From positions 3,466,001 through 3,530,000 of the forward strand of contig NZ_CP064295.1 in NCBI RefSeq assembly GCF_015476115.1: a DNA stretch of 64,000 bases. The letters run 5' to 3'. The stretch is from Aegicerativicinus sediminis. GTDB taxonomy: Bacteria > Bacteroidota > Bacteroidia > Flavobacteriales > Flavobacteriaceae. This document shows, in pieces, positions 46,006 through 54,033 of this stretch. The notes under the pieces are model-generated. The model worked only from the letters and a program-made list of their open reading frames with translations. It was not told the origin of the DNA and searched no databases. Both the position numbers and the translations under genes were made by a program. Position 1 is the first letter of the stretch; each line of letters begins with the position of its first letter.

Positions 46006-47064
46006 ATGGCTGGGAATTCTTACGGAACCTTATTTAAAATAACCACTTTCGGTGAATCTCATGGAGTAGCAATAGGAGGTGTAATCGATGGCTGCCCTGC
46101 TGGTTTAACTATAAATTTTGAAGCTATTCAACATGAATTAGATCGCAGAAAACCAGGGCAATCCAAAATTGTTACACAGCGAAAGGAACCAGATGAAGTG
46201 GAATTTCTCTCAGGAATTTTTGAAGGAAAAACCACCGGAACTCCCATAGGTTTTAATATTAGAAATACCAATCAAAAATCTAAGGATTATTCCCATATTA
46301 AGGATATTTACCGCCCTAGTCATGCTGACTATACATACGAAAAGAAATACGGTTTAAGAGACTATAGAGGTGGTGGCCGCAGTAGTGCTAGAGAAACAGC
46401 TTGCCGTGTAGTTGCAGGAGCAATTGCTAAGCAGTTACTCTCAAATATTGAAATAAATGCTTATGTTTCAGCGGTTGGATCAATTAAATTAACAAAAAAC
46501 TACCAAGAATTAGACCTTTCTAATACTGAGAATAACATAATCCGTTGCCCTGATGATGCCACAGCGGAACAAATGATACAGCTGATAAATGAAACCCGAA
46601 AAAAAGGGGATACTGTTGGTGGAATTATAACATGTGTTTTAAAAAATGTACCCATTGGCTTAGGAGAACCTGTTTTCGATAAACTTCATGCAGAATTAGG
46701 CAAGGCAATGCTTTCTATAAATGCAGTAAAGGGTTTTGAATATGGAAGCGGATTTGATGGAGCTAAAATGTTCGGAAGTGACCATAATGATCTTTTTAAT
46801 AACGACGGAAGCACTAAGACTAATTTGTCTGGAGGGGTCCAAGGGGGTATAAGCAATGGAATGGATATTTATTTCAATGTGGCATTTAAACCCGTTGCAA
46901 CACTCATACAAAAGCAAGAAGCTTTAGATTCTTCAGGTAATCTGGTTGAAATGCAGGGGAAAGGTCGTCATGACCCATGTGTGGTCCCTAGGGCAGTTCC
47001 GATTGTGGAGGCAATGGCTGCTTTGGTTTTAGCAGATTTTTATTTAAGAAATAAAATCTACTAA
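46006..47064 (+). CDS. aroC: chorismate synthase
   Basis: A 352-aa protein with all chorismate synthase blocks: [19 protein letters not shown] near the start, [40 protein letters not shown] and [20 protein letters not shown]. It makes chorismate from EPSP, the end of the shikimate pathway, using reduced FMN. Monofunctional, normal length. Stands as its own unit after a well-formed promoter. Confidence 0.97.
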
Positions 47065-47140: not shown

Positions 47141-48442
47141 ATGAAGAAACTAGCACTGCATTGGCAAATTTTAATTGGAATGGTTGCAGGTGTTGTGTTC
47201 GCGTTAATTATGGCGAACATAGATTGGGGAAAAACATTTATAGTAAATTGGATTAAACCCTTCGGAACCATATTCATCAATTTGTTGAAATTGATCGCAG
47301 TGCCCCTAATCTTGGCATCGCTGATTAAAGGTGTCTCTGACCTTAAGGATATATCCAAGCTTTCGCAAATGGGGGGTAGGACTATCATAACTTATCTTAT
47401 AACTACCGTAGTAGCGGTTTCAATTGGTTTGGCAATTGTAAACATTATCCAACCAGGTTATTCTATAACTGAAGATACACGGAATGAACTGGTAGAAAGT
47501 TATAAAGGGGATGCGGATTCGAGAATTGCGCAAGCTGAAGAACAAAAAAATGCTGGACCACTTAAAGCTCTCGAAGACCTGGTCCCAAGTAATATTTTTA
47601 AGGCTGCAAGTGATAATGGCAATATGCTGCAAGTTATTTTCTTTGCAATTTTCTTCGGAATTGGACTAATCTTAATACCTGAGAATACCGCAAAACCCGT
47701 GAAACAATTTTTTGACGGATTTAATGAAGTGATTCTAAAATTGATAGACCTTATAATGTTAGCAGCTCCGTATGGAGTTTTTGCTCTTTTGGCAGCACTT
47801 ATTGTGGAATCACCTAGTGCAGATTTATTCCTGGCATTGGCCTGGTACGCAATATGTGTGGTTATCGGTCTTATTTTAATGATATTTTTCTATCTACTCA
47901 TTGTATGGATTTTCACTAAAAAATCACCGAAATTTTTTATGAACGGTATGTCTCCTGCTCAATTATTGGCATTTTCTACAAGTAGCAGTGCTGCTACTTT
48001 ACCTGTAACTATGGAACGAGTAGAAGAGCATTTGGGTGTTGAAGAAGAGGTTACAAGTTTTGTCCTTCCTATAGGCGCTACCATTAATATGGACGGTACG
48101 AGTCTTTATCAAGCCGTTGCGGCAGTTTTCATTGCACAGGCATTTGGCATGCATCTAGATCTTGCAACACAATTAGGCATTGTAGCCACTGCAACTTTAG
48201 CTTCTATTGGCAGTGCTGCAGTTCCTGGGGCTGGCATGGTAATGTTGGTAATCGTTTTAGCACAAGCTGGTATTCCTGAGGCAGGATTAGCACTCATTTT
48301 TGCTGTGGATAGGCCATTAGATATGTGTAGAACAGTTGTAAATGTTACAGGAGATGCTTCAGTTTCTATGATTGTTGCAAAATCTGTTGGTAAACTTGGA
48401 GAACCTAAGGTTAAGAATTGGGACGATAATTACCAACATTGA
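47141..48442 (+). CDS. dicarboxylate/amino acid:cation symporter (DAACS)
   Basis: A 433-aa membrane protein with about eight helices and DAACS hallmarks: a serine-rich re-entrant loop (FSTSSSAATLPVTM), LPIGATINMDGTSLYQAVAA, then ATLASIGSAAVPGAGMVML and DRPLDMCRTVVNVTGDASV. These bind glutamate/aspartate or C4-dicarboxylates with Na+ or H+. A periplasmic insert near residues 120-150 is charged. Substrate unknown. It precedes the ATP-grasp operon by 52 bp; a link in substrate supply is possible. Confidence 0.93.
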   Translation: MKKLALHWQILIGMVAGVVFALIMANIDWGKTFIVNWIKPFGTIFINLLKLIAVPLILASLIKGVSDLKDISKLSQMGGRTIITYLITTVVAVSIGLAIVNIIQPGYSITEDTRNELVESYKGDADSRIAQAEEQKNAGPLKALEDLVPSNIFKAASDNGNMLQVIFFAIFFGIGLILIPENTAKPVKQFFDGFNEVILKLIDLIMLAAPYGVFALLAALIVESPSADLFLALAWYAICVVIGLILMIFFYLLIVWIFTKKSPKFFMNGMSPAQLLAFSTSSSAATLPVTMERVEEHLGVEEEVTSFVLPIGATINMDGTSLYQAVAAVFIAQAFGMHLDLATQLGIVATATLASIGSAAVPGAGMVMLVIVLAQAGIPEAGLALIFAVDRPLDMCRTVVNVTGDASVSMIVAKSVGKLGEPKVKNWDDNYQH

Positions 48443-48471: not shown

Positions 48472-48479
48472 TAACTTTG
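48472..48479 (+). promoter_or_regulatory. promoter -7 element of the ATP-grasp/DUF1704 operon
   Basis: TAACTTTG matches TAnnTTTG. Its last three bases are the TTG at 48477 that could be misread as the start codon of the next gene. No good -33 element is visible. The true start is the ATG at 48495. Confidence 0.65.
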
Positions 48480-48494
48480 AGCAAATTAGATAAT

Positions 48495-49532
48495 ATGAAT
48501 ATCTGCTTCATTATGTATCCATGGGATCAAATCGACCCAGAAAATGATACAAGTTTGGCTTTAATAAAGGAATGTGTTAGAAGAGATCATGGGGTTGCCA
48601 TGTGTACCCCTTCAAACTTAACCATAAGAGATAGTGTTACGACAGCTTTTTGCAAGGTTATCGGTAGAATGGATAAGGTCTCCCGAAGCCTTAAGACCTT
48701 TTATAAACAGGTGAAACTTAGGGATGAAATGCTTCCTTTAGCTGGATTTGATGCCATCTTTTTTAGGGCAAATCCACCACTAGATCCTATCGTGTTAAAC
48801 TTTTTGGATTCGGTGAAAAATGATGTTTTTATTATCAACTCCATTCAAGGAATGCGGGAAGCAAATAATAAACTTTACACTGCTGCATTTGGGGATAGTC
48901 ACTCTAATATCATCCCCAATACCCATGTTTCAAAAAACAAGGACTACTTAATAAAACAAATTAAGGAGTCTAAAGCAGATAAGATGATTATTAAACCTTT
49001 GAACGGTTTTGGTGGTTCTGGGGTTATTCTAATTGAAAAATCTGCCATGAGTAATATTAATTCCCTTTTAGATTTTTATATCTCTAATGGTAGGGACGCA
49101 TCTAATTATGTAATCCTTCAAGATTATATTGAAGGAGCCGACCAAGGCGATGTTCGTGTGCTGATGCTTAATGGGGAGCCCGTGGGGGCTATGAGAAGGG
49201 TTCCTGGAGACGATGATCACCGATCTAATGTAAGTGCCGGTGGAAGAGTTGAAAAGCATACACTTTCTAAGGAGGAACGTGCACTTTGCAAACAAATCGG
49301 CCCCAAGTTAGTCCAAGACGGCCTATATTTTGTTGGTATTGATGTTATCGGCGGAAAACTTGTCGAAGTTAATGTGATGTCTCCTGGCGGTATTACTTAC
49401 ATAAACAAGGTTTATAAGAATAAAAGAAGGGTTGAGGAAAAGGTCATCGACTTTATAGAAAGTAAAGTACTCGATAAACTACAAGCCTTTAACCGAAGAA
49501 CCCGATTGAGAAAAACTGTAGACGAAGCCTAG
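48495..49532 (+). CDS. ATP-grasp ligase, glutathione-synthetase/RimK-like (1)
   Basis: A 345-aa protein from ATG 48495 (MNICFIMYPWDQIDPENDTS). The N-terminal ~120 residues are a preATP-grasp Rossmann part with PLAGFDAIFFRANPPLDP. The ATP-grasp core shows MIIKPLNGFGGSGVILIEKS, YVILQDYIEGADQGDVRVLM, MRRVPGDDDHRSNVSAGGR and FVGIDVIGGKLVEVNVMSPG, with the metal-binding Asp/Glu/Asn residues. This is the glutathione synthetase class, which joins a carboxylate to an amine. It heads a four-gene operon (6 bp to the next gene) with two hydrolases and a second ATP-grasp. Substrate unknown; the operon suggests peptide or protein-tail ligation. Confidence 0.9.
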   Translation: MNICFIMYPWDQIDPENDTSLALIKECVRRDHGVAMCTPSNLTIRDSVTTAFCKVIGRMDKVSRSLKTFYKQVKLRDEMLPLAGFDAIFFRANPPLDPIVLNFLDSVKNDVFIINSIQGMREANNKLYTAAFGDSHSNIIPNTHVSKNKDYLIKQIKESKADKMIIKPLNGFGGSGVILIEKSAMSNINSLLDFYISNGRDASNYVILQDYIEGADQGDVRVLMLNGEPVGAMRRVPGDDDHRSNVSAGGRVEKHTLSKEERALCKQIGPKLVQDGLYFVGIDVIGGKLVEVNVMSPGGITYINKVYKNKRRVEEKVIDFIESKVLDKLQAFNRRTRLRKTVDEA

Positions 49533-49538
49533 TATTTT

Positions 49539-50375
49539 ATGACAATATCTAAAATGAGTGTCGATGAAATTATCGATGCAATTGGTAATGAGAAAACTTT
49601 CCATGCCGTTTCAGATGATTATTCCTTTATAATAAAAATTGAGTCTTATGTTCATTTTATTTGTGGCGCCGTACACGATGGACATCAGTTCAGAAAAGAA
49701 TTATGGGAAAATTGCCTATTATCTGAATATGAACGGTGGTATGAAGAGGACCCAGAAACGTTGAATATGGTTAGAACCCATCCAATAACCATTGCTGGTT
49801 TAGACTCCAGGTTTGAATATGATCTCAACCGAGACCCTGAAAATGCAATTTATGAGGATGCTTGGGGGAAAAAGATGTGGAAGCAACCATTAAGCAAGGA
49901 AGCTAAAGATTTCAGTTTGGCGAAACATACAAATTTTTATAAGGTCGTAAATGCGCTTGTTTCAAAAATTGAACAATTATTTGGTCGATGCATTGTTTAC
50001 GATATGCATAGCTATAATTGGAGGCGCTGGGATAGAAAGGTGCCTACATGGAATTTGGGCACATCGAACATTGACAACAATCGTTTCGGTGGTATGGTCG
50101 AGGATTGGCGCGCTTCACTATCGGAAATGATTTTCCCAAATGATATAGATACAAAGGCTAAAGTTAACGATACCTTTCAGGGAAATGGCTATTTTTTAAA
50201 GTTTATAACCAATAACTTCAGTAATACACTGGTATTGGCGACAGAGATTTCCAAAGTCTATTGCAACGAATTAAGCGGCGTAATTTACCTAGACATAGTA
50301 AGTATAGTTGAAGAGGAACTTAAAAAAAGGATACCCCAACACGCCACTATCTTTATCGAGAAAACCAAACCTTGA
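49539..50375 (+). CDS. N-formylglutamate amidohydrolase family protein
   Basis: A 278-aa protein with the HutG-like fold: FICGAVHDGHQFRKELW (metal His), an arginine-rich part VRTHPITIAGLDSRFEYDLN, and IVYDMHSYNWRRWDRKVPTW (Asp-x-His). Metal ligands and the substrate-binding Arg of the family are plausible. It hydrolyses an N-formyl or other amide bond of an acidic amino acid. Alone these enzymes serve histidine breakdown, but no hut gene is present. It sits 6 bp after an ATP-grasp gene and 65 bp before DUF1704, so it probably acts on that system's product. Confidence 0.85.
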   Translation: MTISKMSVDEIIDAIGNEKTFHAVSDDYSFIIKIESYVHFICGAVHDGHQFRKELWENCLLSEYERWYEEDPETLNMVRTHPITIAGLDSRFEYDLNRDPENAIYEDAWGKKMWKQPLSKEAKDFSLAKHTNFYKVVNALVSKIEQLFGRCIVYDMHSYNWRRWDRKVPTWNLGTSNIDNNRFGGMVEDWRASLSEMIFPNDIDTKAKVNDTFQGNGYFLKFITNNFSNTLVLATEISKVYCNELSGVIYLDIVSIVEEELKKRIPQHATIFIEKTKP

Positions 50376-50440
50376 TAAATAAGACACTCTATTTTCTGAA
50401 AGAGCTAAAGAACATCAACAATATTTCATAATTCTGCATT

Positions 50441-52303
50441 ATGGGAAGTGAAACAATGGAGGATAAGACGACCCCGGTAATTAATGATCAACTATTAGAG
50501 AGGATTTGTACAAAAATCCAAAACAAAGGTGTTGTCTTTGAAAAATTTTCAGATAAGGGGACAGTCTACATCGATAAGCTATTACCTTACTTATGCATTT
50601 ACAGATACAATGAAGAAGACCCCTATTTTTCAGGGTTGTTAAAAACCCAAGGCGCCTATATTATCGTTCATGATTCAGTCGATTTAAAACCTCTTTTAAG
50701 AGCAATTGCAACTACCATGACAGAAAAATTCCATTCAATGCTGATTATGGAATTTTGGCCTGAAATTTCAAATGGTGATTATAGTTTTAAAATTCGTGCT
50801 CCAAAGGGAGACAGTTTACCTACAACAAAGGCATTAGCAGAAGGTTTTAAACAACTTTCTGAATTTAATATTCATATTACCAATACAATCTCTAAGAAAA
50901 AACCTAGACAACCAGACCACTTAAAACCTTTATTGGAGGATGGTGAATTAAAAAAATTAGGGGCAATAATTTATGGTGTAGGAATACCTACCATTTACAG
51001 AAACGAACCGAATAAAGAATTGTATTATCTGTTCTATCGAAAATTCCATTCCATTTTTTCTGAAACCGTAATGCGCTCGGCTTACGAATTTATCCGAGTA
51101 CAAACTGCCAACCCATTCGATAATTATTTAATGCTTGGCAAAACCAGCCTCGATGAAATTACCTTAAAGTCAGATAAGGAATTGGCAGAAATTAGTGAAG
51201 GAATGTCTTTTCTCTTAAGAACAACTCCGGTAAATAGTTATGAGGAGTGGATAAAATTTAAAGAGAATAATTATAAAAAGACTCCCTCTTTTAATTACCG
51301 ACTAATTGCCATTGATCCAGAAATTGAAAAGCGGAAACTATTTAATGTGCCAATCGATCAAATTGAGGATCCCACAATTGCTTTTATATTAAGGGGTAAA
51401 CGATTGGAAATTGAGAAACAGCTTACCATGCTTGAAGAGCGCGGGACTACCAATTTTAAACATGTCGGGAATAGTCTGTATGGAGTTATCCAAAGAAATA
51501 CCTTAAAAGAAGCAAAAAAAATTCTCCGGACTTTCCCTAAAAAGCAAAATTTATCTGGTAAGAAACGATACGATTGTTTCGAGTTTGCCAGTATTGCCCA
51601 AAAAGAGATTGATTATTATCAAGAATGCTTTCCGGACATTTCATTAAAGATTGAAATAAGGGATGATATTGCGGGAATTATGGTTTCTAAAACAAAATTA
51701 TTGGTTAGTAGCCAGCTCTCAATAAATTCAAAACGGGCAGATGCATTAATTCAACATGAAGTAGGCACCCACATAGTTACTTACTGCAATGGTAAAATGC
51801 AACCTCTAGAACAAATGTATGCTGGTTTTGAAGGATACGATCAGTTACAGGAAGGTATAGCGGTATTAGCAGAATATTTAGTGGATGGGTTAACAGTTAC
51901 AAGACTTCGGTTATTAGCCGGAAGGGTTGTGGCAGTAGACAGTATGGTAAAAGGAGCAAACTTTAAGGAGACTTTTAGACTATTAACCAAAAACCATAAT
52001 TTTTCTCCAACCTCCGCTTATTATATCTCCATGAGAATATATAGGGGTGGAGGATTGACCAAAGATGCAGTTTATTTAGCCGGTCTTATTGATGTACTTA
52101 ACTATCTAAAAAAGGGTGGTGATTTAAACATTCTATATTGCGGCAAATTCAACACGAACCACATCGAACTTATTCAGGAATTACTATATAGAGGTGTATT
52201 GAACCAACCTAAAATACCAAGGTTTTTAGAACGACCACAAGTTCAACAGCGATTAACGAGACTTCGAAATGGAATCGAAATTACGGATATGGTAAGTGAT
52301 TAG
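50441..52303 (+). CDS. DUF1704 'QEGLA motif' metallopeptidase, MATCAP-like
   Basis: A 620-aa protein. The catalytic site is HEVGTH at 439-444 (HExxxH) with the third zinc ligand expected in QEGIA at 470-474 (Glu471). This is the DUF1704 fold; the bacterial family is often labelled flavohemoglobin-expression-modulating QEGLA protein. The same domain in animals, MATCAP (KIAA0895L), is a tubulin tyrosine carboxypeptidase, so removal of a C-terminal residue is a reasonable model. The first ~150 residues form a beta-alpha domain of unknown role. It is between an amidohydrolase-like gene and a second ATP-grasp gene, which would let ligation and removal act as a pair. Catalytic residues are intact. 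Confidence 0.9.
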   Translation: MGSETMEDKTTPVINDQLLERICTKIQNKGVVFEKFSDKGTVYIDKLLPYLCIYRYNEEDPYFSGLLKTQGAYIIVHDSVDLKPLLRAIATTMTEKFHSMLIMEFWPEISNGDYSFKIRAPKGDSLPTTKALAEGFKQLSEFNIHITNTISKKKPRQPDHLKPLLEDGELKKLGAIIYGVGIPTIYRNEPNKELYYLFYRKFHSIFSETVMRSAYEFIRVQTANPFDNYLMLGKTSLDEITLKSDKELAEISEGMSFLLRTTPVNSYEEWIKFKENNYKKTPSFNYRLIAIDPEIEKRKLFNVPIDQIEDPTIAFILRGKRLEIEKQLTMLEERGTTNFKHVGNSLYGVIQRNTLKEAKKILRTFPKKQNLSGKKRYDCFEFASIAQKEIDYYQECFPDISLKIEIRDDIAGIMVSKTKLLVSSQLSINSKRADALIQHEVGTHIVTYCNGKMQPLEQMYAGFEGYDQLQEGIAVLAEYLVDGLTVTRLRLLAGRVVAVDSMVKGANFKETFRLLTKNHNFSPTSAYYISMRIYRGGGLTKDAVYLAGLIDVLNYLKKGGDLNILYCGKFNTNHIELIQELLYRGVLNQPKIPRFLERPQVQQRLTRLRNGIEITDMVSD

Positions 52304-52336
52304 TTATTCCTAAAATTTTACTTTAATAATTGAAAG

Positions 52337-53377
52337 ATGAAAATAGCATTTATAATAAATGATCATAATACAGAAAAACCTAATTACACAACTCCTGGCT
52401 TGGGATATGCAGCCTACAAGAGAGGGCATGATGTATATTTCATTGGGGTCGGCGAACTTTCGTATGCCTCTAAAGGTCATCTGTCTGTAAGATGTAAAAC
52501 TGTCACGGGTAAAAATTTCAATACTCAAGAAACATTTTTTAAGGCGGTACAAAAAGAGGAATTTTCAAAAGTTACTTCTGAAGAATTAGATGTTTTGTTT
52601 TTAAGAAACAATCCTTCAGATGAAATCAATGAACGTGACTGGGCACAAAATGCGGCTTTTATTTTTGGTGAAATCGCAATGCGAAATGGCGTTATTGTTT
52701 TGAACCATCCTAATAGTTTGGCAGGAGCGGTCAACAAAATGTATTTTCAGCATTTCCCAGAAATTTTAAGACCTAAAACGGTGATATCCAGAGATCACAA
52801 TGAGATTAAAGCATTTTTTGAAGAGCAAAAACAAAAAATGATTCTAAAGCCACTACAAGGTTCAGGGGGAGCAAATGTCTTTATGATGGATAAGAAAAAT
52901 GCACATAACCTAAGTCAAACCATTGATGCAATTTGTAGGGATGGTTTTGTTATAGCCCAAGAATATTTACCTGATGCGAAAAATGGAGACACTAGATTAT
53001 TTTTAGTTAATGGAGAACCGCTGGAGGTTAAAGGACAATATGCCATGATGAAAAGGGTGAATGCAAAAGGAGAAATACGCAGCAATATTCATGCTGGAGG
53101 AAAACCCACCAAAGCAGTAATGACAGACGAAATAATGGAATTAGCAGATATCGTTAGACCTAAATTAGTGCAAGATGGTATGTTTATGGTTGGCATAGAT
53201 ATAGTTGGCAATAAACTTATGGAAATTAATGTGTTTAGCCCTGGTGGTCTAAATGTTATGGGTCAAATGTACGGGGTTGATTTCTCATCAAAAGTAATTG
53301 AAGCTATTGAAAAAAAGGTGGATTATAAAAAAATGTATCCAGATTATTTATACAATAGTCGACTTGCCACACTCTAG
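52337..53377 (+). CDS. ATP-grasp ligase, glutathione-synthetase/RimK-like (2)
   Basis: A 346-aa protein (MKIAFIINDHNTEKPNYTTP). Core motifs: KMILKPLQGSGGANVFMMDK, FVIAQEYLPDAKNGDTRLFL, KRVNAKGEIRSNIHAGGKP and FMVGIDIVGNKLMEINVFSP. It is a paralogue of the ATP-grasp at 48495, related in fold but clearly diverged (GGSGV against GGANV and different N-terminal regions), so the two may use different substrates or act in order. Last gene of the operon, 33 bp after DUF1704. A terminator lies about 200 bp downstream. Confidence 0.9.
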   Translation: MKIAFIINDHNTEKPNYTTPGLGYAAYKRGHDVYFIGVGELSYASKGHLSVRCKTVTGKNFNTQETFFKAVQKEEFSKVTSEELDVLFLRNNPSDEINERDWAQNAAFIFGEIAMRNGVIVLNHPNSLAGAVNKMYFQHFPEILRPKTVISRDHNEIKAFFEEQKQKMILKPLQGSGGANVFMMDKKNAHNLSQTIDAICRDGFVIAQEYLPDAKNGDTRLFLVNGEPLEVKGQYAMMKRVNAKGEIRSNIHAGGKPTKAVMTDEIMELADIVRPKLVQDGMFMVGIDIVGNKLMEINVFSPGGLNVMGQMYGVDFSSKVIEAIEKKVDYKKMYPDYLYNSRLATL

Positions 53378-53580: not shown

Positions 53581-53610
53581 GCAAAACCCTTCAGAACGAA
53601 GGGTTTTTGC
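53581..53610. terminator. bidirectional terminator after the ATP-grasp operon and the DCC gene
   Basis: GCAAAACCCTTC-AGAAC-GAAGGGTTTTTGC forms a ~12-bp stem. It ends the plus-strand operon and also the minus-strand DCC/mutS2 run, whose stop is at 53614. Confidence 0.85.
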
Positions 53611-53613
53611 ATT

Positions 53614-54033
53614 TTATTTATCTAAAAACTTTTCTTTTAAATCAGGGGTAGGAATCATGCATTTCTCTTGTTTACCAAACCATTTATATCGATTCTTACC
53701 AATATAATTATAAACGGCATCTCTTATAGCCTTTGGTACAACTATGAAAATAGCAAACAGATTAATTGGAAATTTCAATTTTGAAGCAATTCTTAAAGCT
53801 GCACTTGATCTTTTATAGATTTTGCCATCGGGAGTTTCCAATATAATTGATTCTAAATTACCTAAATCAATCATTTTCGATCCCAATGCCATTTTTGCAT
53901 ATTCACTCTGTAGGGATGCAAATTGAAATAAATTCTTTGAATCATTTCTTATAACATATTGAATTGAGTTATTGCATAGATTGCAAACCCCATCAAAGTA
54001 AATTACATATGTATTGTTAGGTTCAGTTTTCAT
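53614..54033 (-). CDS. DUF393/DCC family thiol-disulfide oxidoreductase-like protein
   Basis: A 139-aa protein with the DCC-family motif YFDGVCNLCNNSIQYVIRND near the N-terminus; the CxxC pair at VCNLC lies in a thioredoxin-like fold. There is no signal peptide. Later parts LGNLESIILETPDGKIYKRS and YKWFGKQEKCMIP are usual. The start overlaps the stop of mutS2 by 4 bp (ATGA), so it is translated after mutS2. Redox role inferred. Confidence 0.9.
   Translation of the reverse strand: MKTEPNNTYVIYFDGVCNLCNNSIQYVIRNDSKNLFQFASLQSEYAKMALGSKMIDLGNLESIILETPDGKIYKRSSAALRIASKLKFPINLFAIFIVVPKAIRDAVYNYIGKNRYKWFGKQEKCMIPTPDLKEKFLDK

Follow-up and report, generated by a model that had tools for sequence, protein, structure and literature searches.

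A conserved bacterial gene cassette of ATP-grasp ligases, a MATCAP-like peptidase and an FGase-family hydrolase suggests a cycle for small acidic peptides

What might two enzymes that form amide bonds and two hydrolases do when their genes stand in a single run? We addressed this question for a 64,000-nucleotide stretch of DNA from Aegicerativicinus sediminis (contig NZ_CP064295.1, positions 3466001-3530000 of the complete 4.09-Mb genome; hereafter the window), whose nearest named relatives belong to the Flavobacteriaceae, for example Winogradskyella and Gelidibacter. In the window, genes for an ATP-grasp ligase (ligase 1), an amidohydrolase of the N-formylglutamate amidohydrolase (FGase) family, a peptidase with a MATCAP (DUF1704) domain and another ATP-grasp ligase (ligase 2) follow one another. 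We propose that the enzymes of this operon make a small acidic peptide and recycle it, in a metabolic cycle resembling the mammalian N-acetylaspartylglutamate (NAAG) cycle, and give this reading a probability of roughly 0.5. A preliminary description of the locus had listed four genes on one strand, with gaps of 6, 65 and 33 bp, and had judged both ligases and the HExxxH/QEGIA peptidase to be intact; calling of open reading frames (ORFs), Pfam matches and the HEVGTH and QEGIA motifs bear this out. The four genes of the operon described there stand, but its extent does not, as a gene for an SDF-family symporter lies 52 bp upstream of ligase 1 and a hairpin-like end follows ligase 2. The features, in window coordinates, are:

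47141..48442, + strand: SDF-family acidic amino-acid symporter, GltP-like (PF00375, E = 4.8e-129); probable first gene.
48495..49532, + strand: ligase 1, GshB-branch ATP-grasp amide ligase (GSH-S_N and GSH-S_ATP; NF009110).
49539..50375, + strand: FGase-family amidohydrolase, subtype A (PF05013; fold match to 2q7s).
50441..51124, + strand: 5′ portion of the peptidase gene, encoding residues 1-228 with a metal-ligand-free FGase-like domain (by fold and profile comparison); the whole peptidase ORF, from ORF calling, is 50441-52303, + strand.
51125..52303, + strand: C-terminal MATCAP (DUF1704) metallocarboxypeptidase domain (PF08014; HExxxH and QEGIA).
52337..53377, + strand: ligase 2, GshB-branch ATP-grasp amide ligase, the core ligase of the cassette (PF02955).
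53583..53607, + strand: terminator-like hairpin 3′ of ligase 2, with a 10-pair stem and a T-rich tail.

We determined how widely these genes keep company. Scanning GTDB genomes, one per species, with a profile yielded at least 563 confirmed relatives of the peptidase, and we compared the loci of the best 80, which span 13 phyla and one unplaced genome, together with 13 Bacteroidota loci. Since the query itself is long, the sample is biased toward long forms of the peptidase; proteobacterial short forms were sampled only via plasmids. A homolog of ligase 2 lies directly downstream of 85 of the 89 long MATCAP genes in these loci, on the same strand and typically with a 4-bp overlap or a gap of less than 50 bp, and an FGase gene usually precedes the pair. 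FGase and MATCAP genes are also adjacent on rhizobial plasmids, including pSymB of Sinorhizobium meliloti, and Shinella and Aminobacter records annotate FGase, MATCAP and ligase as a consecutive run. Because gene order is kept across 13 phyla, the grouping is not due to chance, and the concern of the preliminary description that orthologous operons might not stay together is answered.

A clue to the chemistry came from loci that lack FGase. In one clade, neighbor clustering revealed an AstE_AspA_cat gene beside the ligase in 24 of 24 such loci (two members were confirmed as AstE_AspA by Pfam). This gene is mostly downstream on the same strand, being convergent in three Cyclobacteriaceae loci, and the copies retain the HxNE, DLNR and DxH motifs. 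FGase and AstE_AspA genes occurred together in none of the loci compared, including when these were searched with hidden Markov models. On the MATCAP tree, the change from FGase to AstE_AspA requires one event; in a second change, FGase of subtype B gave way to that of subtype A, the subtype of the window. Nine MATCAP loci had neither hydrolase within reach, several of them short contigs, which L031, L032 and L086 are not. FGase, succinylglutamate desuccinylase and aspartoacylase all cleave the acyl-amide of an N-acyl glutamate or aspartate. Therefore, the step that was replaced is probably the hydrolysis of an N-acyl acidic amino acid, and the swap reduces the candidate substrates to a short list.

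The match of the window FGase to PF05013 (E = 1e-11) scored 45.4 bits against a cut-off of 28.9, and its predicted structure (mean predicted local distance difference test, pLDDT, 95.6) matched the N-formylglutamate amidohydrolase 2q7s with a Z score of 24.8 over 236 residues. H46, E69-E70, R91, D95, N97, R98, D155, H157 and E236 are invariant in 37 homologs. The protein shares domain and fold with the N-formylglutamate deformylase HutG, but falls far below the HutG equivalog model TIGR02017 (16.6 bits; cut-off 278.75).

The peptidase scored 323.1 bits with PF08014 (cut-off 27) over residues 272-610, and H439, E440, H444, Q470, E471 and G472 are invariant in 90 long homologs. The QEGLA protein model TIGR02421 was not reached (331.3 bits; cut-off 338.65). 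In the AlphaFold model (pLDDT 93.8; predicted template modeling score 0.90), residues 258-619 matched human MATCAP (7z5g) with a Z score of 24.6 and a root-mean-square deviation of 3.0 over 290 residues. No other MATCAP gene is present in the complete genome. The preliminary description was thus right to name a DUF1704 peptidase, but the protein has more than its DUF1704 part: a separate, degenerate FGase-like domain occupies residues 37-222 and matched 2q7s with a Z score of 13.2 (173 residues, 3.1 Å). Profile comparison of this domain with the operon FGase using hhalign gave modest agreement (E = 1.9e-5, probability 78), and a sequence search of the PDB with the FGase profile returned nothing meaningful. 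As the domain contains no well-conserved histidine, and E104 alone is fully conserved, we infer that it is a catalytically dead pseudoenzyme. In locus L019, a protein of 667 residues fuses a short MATCAP to an FGase whose residues are intact and which is apparently active. Together, the L019 fusion and the degenerate long form support a shared substrate or complex.

Our searches of the literature on the DUF1704/QEGLA/PF08014 family returned one match, the 27-fold induction of the QEGLA-family protein A0J47_RS17025 of Photobacterium damselae at low salinity (PMC10308900). This is a weak hint of osmotic regulation, the link to the window protein being by family name.

How could these activities work together? 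Since the ligases and a MATCAP-type peptidase form a conserved unit, the natural reading is a cycle in which amino acids are added and removed, and this part of the earlier proposal stands. We favor a small acidic acyl-peptide as the object of the cycle because the same three activities run the NAAG cycle, in which the ligases RIMKLA and RIMKLB act with glutamate carboxypeptidase II and aspartoacylase (PMC3872778), and because the animal TMCP/MATCAP enzymes, which remove C-terminal tyrosine and glutamate, also shorten glutamate chains (PMC10499314). In our model, the symporter would import glutamate or aspartate, and the ligases, in line with the chemistry of their family, would use ATP to form an amide bond between an amino acid, probably glutamate or a similar acidic residue, and a carboxylate acceptor. 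The acceptor may be an acidic amino acid or peptide whose amino group is acylated or blocked in another way. MATCAP, a zinc carboxypeptidase by fold and motifs, would take the C-terminal residue off again, and FGase, or AstE/aspartoacylase elsewhere, would deacylate the acidic amino acid that remains. For the FGase-like domain of the long MATCAP form, binding of the same acidic ligand or docking of the hydrolase is the probable role, and two ligases, or the two to three tandem copies in Planctomycetes, could make successive additions. Besides the conserved trio in 13 phyla, we count in favor of this model the mutual exclusion of FGase and AstE_AspA, the fusions, the Glu/Asp-type symporter, the tandem ligase copies and the GshB arginines of ligases that depart from GshB in the TSPT loop and carry RSN (the last three described below).

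The likeness to the NAAG cycle would extend to all three steps: ATP-grasp addition of glutamate to an N-acyl acidic amino acid, removal by a metallocarboxypeptidase and deacylation by an AspA-family enzyme (PMC3872778). The bacterial system differs in that its ligase belongs to the GshB rather than the RimK branch, its peptidase is MATCAP rather than glutamate carboxypeptidase II, and its genes form one operon. Likewise, the tubulin carboxypeptidases MATCAP/TMCP (KIAA0895L and KIAA0895) have the catalytic fold and the HExxxH/EGLA motifs in common with the window peptidase, whereas the bacterial long form adds the degenerate FGase-like domain and is linked in an operon to a ligase and a hydrolase.

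Alternatively, the ligases could append amino acids to the C-terminal end of a protein of the host, with MATCAP reversing the extension, as TTL (tubulin tyrosine ligase) and MATCAP do on tubulin, and FGase trimming the released acidic product. There is precedent in RimABK, which carries out polyglutamylation of ribosomal protein S6 and in which the RimK ATP-grasp ligase and the RimB protease add and remove glutamate on a bacterial protein (PMC11957791). Animal MATCAP also targets protein tails, and both window ligases have a RimK-like RSN motif. The cassette shares with RimABK the pairing of an ATP-grasp ligase with a peptidase that would undo its product. It differs in that the ligases score 98.2 and 86.1 bits with the RimK model TIGR00768 (cut-off 143.4), and the unit consists of SDF symporter, ligase, FGase, MATCAP and ligase, with no RimB-type aspartic protease. 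The ligases separate from RimK on our tree, the FGase/AstE partner indicates small N-acyl amino acids, and no gene for a target protein or peptide is conserved beside the cassette. We therefore favor a small-molecule cycle and consider modification of a protein tail unlikely. The check proposed earlier, for a short conserved peptide gene near orthologous operons, was run: short ORFs around the cassette fell into genus-level clusters, none of them in a cassette position across genera. We accordingly rejected the idea of a conserved gene for a ribosomally synthesized and post-translationally modified peptide, or tail peptide. A protein tail or ribosomal peptide as the target is not supported; the FGase and AstE families act on N-acyl-Glu/Asp small molecules. 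A role in anti-phage defense was also rejected, as PADLOC gave no match.

We next consider the ligases, for which a glutathione-type product has to be weighed. Both matched GSH-S_N and PF02955 (GSH-S_ATP; E = 6e-56 for ligase 1 and 1.4e-52 for ligase 2) and passed the cut-off of NF009110, with 455.8 and 435.8 bits, respectively. With the glutathione synthase model NF003573 (cut-off 272), ligase 1 scored 283.2 and ligase 2 scored 219.2; with TIGR01380 (cut-off 299), the scores were 237.4 and 207.4. The ligases share about 31-33% of residues with Escherichia coli GshB, as against 24-26% with RimK. On a quick tree, in which GshB sits on a long branch, both ligases are separate from GshB and from RimK. 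No TTL-family domain was among the Pfam matches of either ligase at E values up to 0.1, and the link that the preliminary description drew to tubulin tyrosine ligase (TTL) is not upheld for these GshB-branch enzymes.

The ligases share with E. coli GshB the two-domain ATP-grasp family and four arginines, Arg86, Arg210, Arg225 and Arg233 of GshB, which we take to be contacts to the peptide substrate. They differ from GshB on the acceptor side, where MSPGG or FSPGG stands in place of its C-terminal TSPT loop, and in having RSN, as in RimK, in place of RGN. Also, no partner for the first step of glutathione synthesis was found: the genome contains no match to the glutamate-cysteine ligase models PF04107 (GCS2) and PF04262 (Glu_cys_ligase), both of which give matches in E. 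coli. A search with PF08886, made without a positive control and uninformative alone, likewise gave no match in the genome. Because the two control-validated models found no glutamate-cysteine ligase and the bacillithiol enzyme BshC is present, plain glutathione is unlikely to be the product, and we rejected glutathione synthesis as the function.

In a broader version, the product of the ligases is a thiol peptide resembling glutathione, which MATCAP and the amidohydrolase degrade and which a rhodanese uses as sulfur acceptor. In 12 of 20 Flavobacteriaceae loci fetched, a rhodanese gene of the 3-mercaptopyruvate sulfurtransferase type lies between ligase 1 and FGase, as in:

L020, 11316-12137: rhodanese insert.
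L022, 6770-7609: rhodanese insert.
L178, 5836-6696: rhodanese insert.

This gene, the retained arginines and the NF003573 score of ligase 1 speak for such a thiol peptide. The absence of GCS2 and Glu_cys_ligase matches, the presence of BshC and the scores of ligase 2 below both glutathione synthase cut-offs argue against it, and the rhodanese is missing from the window operon and was seen in no operon other than the Flavobacteriaceae type. We regard a thiol-peptide system as rather improbable. A third proposal, in which the hydrolases clear acidic peptides that are damaged or wrongly ligated while the ligase restores a normal glutamylated cofactor tail, draws on the glutamate-tail cofactor ligases MptN and CofF, which are among the weaker family matches of both window ligases. 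As the scores with the ligase models for tetrahydromethanopterin and F420 fall far short of the cut-offs, and genes for cofactor synthesis are not recurrent neighbors of the cassette, we find metabolite repair or salvage very improbable.

Why does the window encode two ligases? Two operon types explain the arrangement. Ligase 1, found in 115 of 299 Flavobacteriaceae genomes, belongs to a Flavobacteriaceae type in which it is combined with the symporter, FGase A and a short MATCAP; the rhodanese is often part of this type and a TerB-like gene sometimes is; FGase and MATCAP are present in 19 of the 20 ligase-1 loci fetched. Other lineages have FGase B, a long MATCAP and ligase 2. Since the window and a few relatives (its genus relative G394, locus L182, and loci L020, L028 and L186) combine both types, the two-ligase operon is a lineage-specific merger of two related modules. 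It exists as the preliminary description had it, but is not the core form of the system.

Several variants of the cassette were seen. The TerB-like gene, of approximately 110 residues, lies immediately before FGase (L022 7612-7938, L028 8838-9170 and L177 5857-6192). Planctomycetota loci contain tandem MATCAP-ligase-MATCAP-ligase units or three consecutive ligases (L059 7856-15832, L044 57-5946 and L071 9102-15128), which suggests stepwise addition of different residues; tandem ligase copies occur in L059, L061, L071 and L077. In L031 (11831-12873), L070 (11300-12363) and L087 (11929-12975), the ligase-2 gene is split in two, perhaps by a frameshift or by an error in sequencing.

The limits of the unit in the window are as follows. 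The symporter, probably its first gene, stays close to ligase 1 in the majority of the Flavobacteriaceae loci that we fetched. Its top NCBIfam match is GltP, with a score under the cut-off of that model, and its transmembrane helix 8 motif, DRPLDMCRTVVNVTGD, retains the Asp/Arg pair of glutamate/aspartate carriers, a pattern that we checked in relatives. These two residues are presumably the ones that bind acidic amino acids in the SDF family. Ligase 1 has an ATG start at 48495, with an alternative TTG at 48477 possible. The hairpin after ligase 2 is one of 9 terminator-like hairpins found in the region, where 4.7 were expected. Directly upstream of the symporter is the chorismate synthase gene aroC (46006-47064), an adjacency that is kept in nine related loci and probably reflects only local gene order. 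A DCC1-like thiol-disulfide oxidoreductase gene (53614-54033), convergent with the operon, keeps its position in nine relatives.

Certain observations weigh against the small acidic peptide cycle. Neighbor clustering revealed no acyltransferase conserved beside the cassette, which leaves the source of the N-acyl donor unexplained, and none of the hosts has a known metabolite of this kind. The FGase fold also includes peptidases and poly-gamma-glutamate hydrolases, and hence does not by itself dictate an acyl-amino-acid substrate, and the rhodanese in Flavobacteriaceae loci hints at sulfur chemistry outside the cycle.

The 2009 computational amidoligase survey of Iyer and colleagues reportedly described neighborhoods of ATP-grasp, FGase and DUF1704 genes. 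The replacement of FGase by AstE and the apparent degeneration of the fused FGase-like domain, both as read from sequence, are described here. We found no experiments on the bacterial ligase-MATCAP-FGase system in the literature searched. The module is an uncharacterized variant of the known amidoligase-peptidase systems. Tentatively, and at somewhat less than even odds, we suggest that it is an unrecognized cycle of at least 13 phyla in which an N-acyl acidic peptide is assembled by an ATP-grasp ligase and dismantled by two zinc hydrolases, as a counterpart of the NAAG cycle. At least 563 species-level loci encode a relative of the peptidase, and among the best 80 nearly all long forms adjoin the same ligase. 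Finding the product would bring to light a metabolite widespread among bacteria, and it might also show from which chemistry the tubulin carboxypeptidases of the MATCAP family arose. If the cycle is indeed a counterpart of the NAAG cycle, the MATCAP that acts on tubulin tails would descend from, or share descent with, a bacterial acidic-peptide carboxypeptidase.

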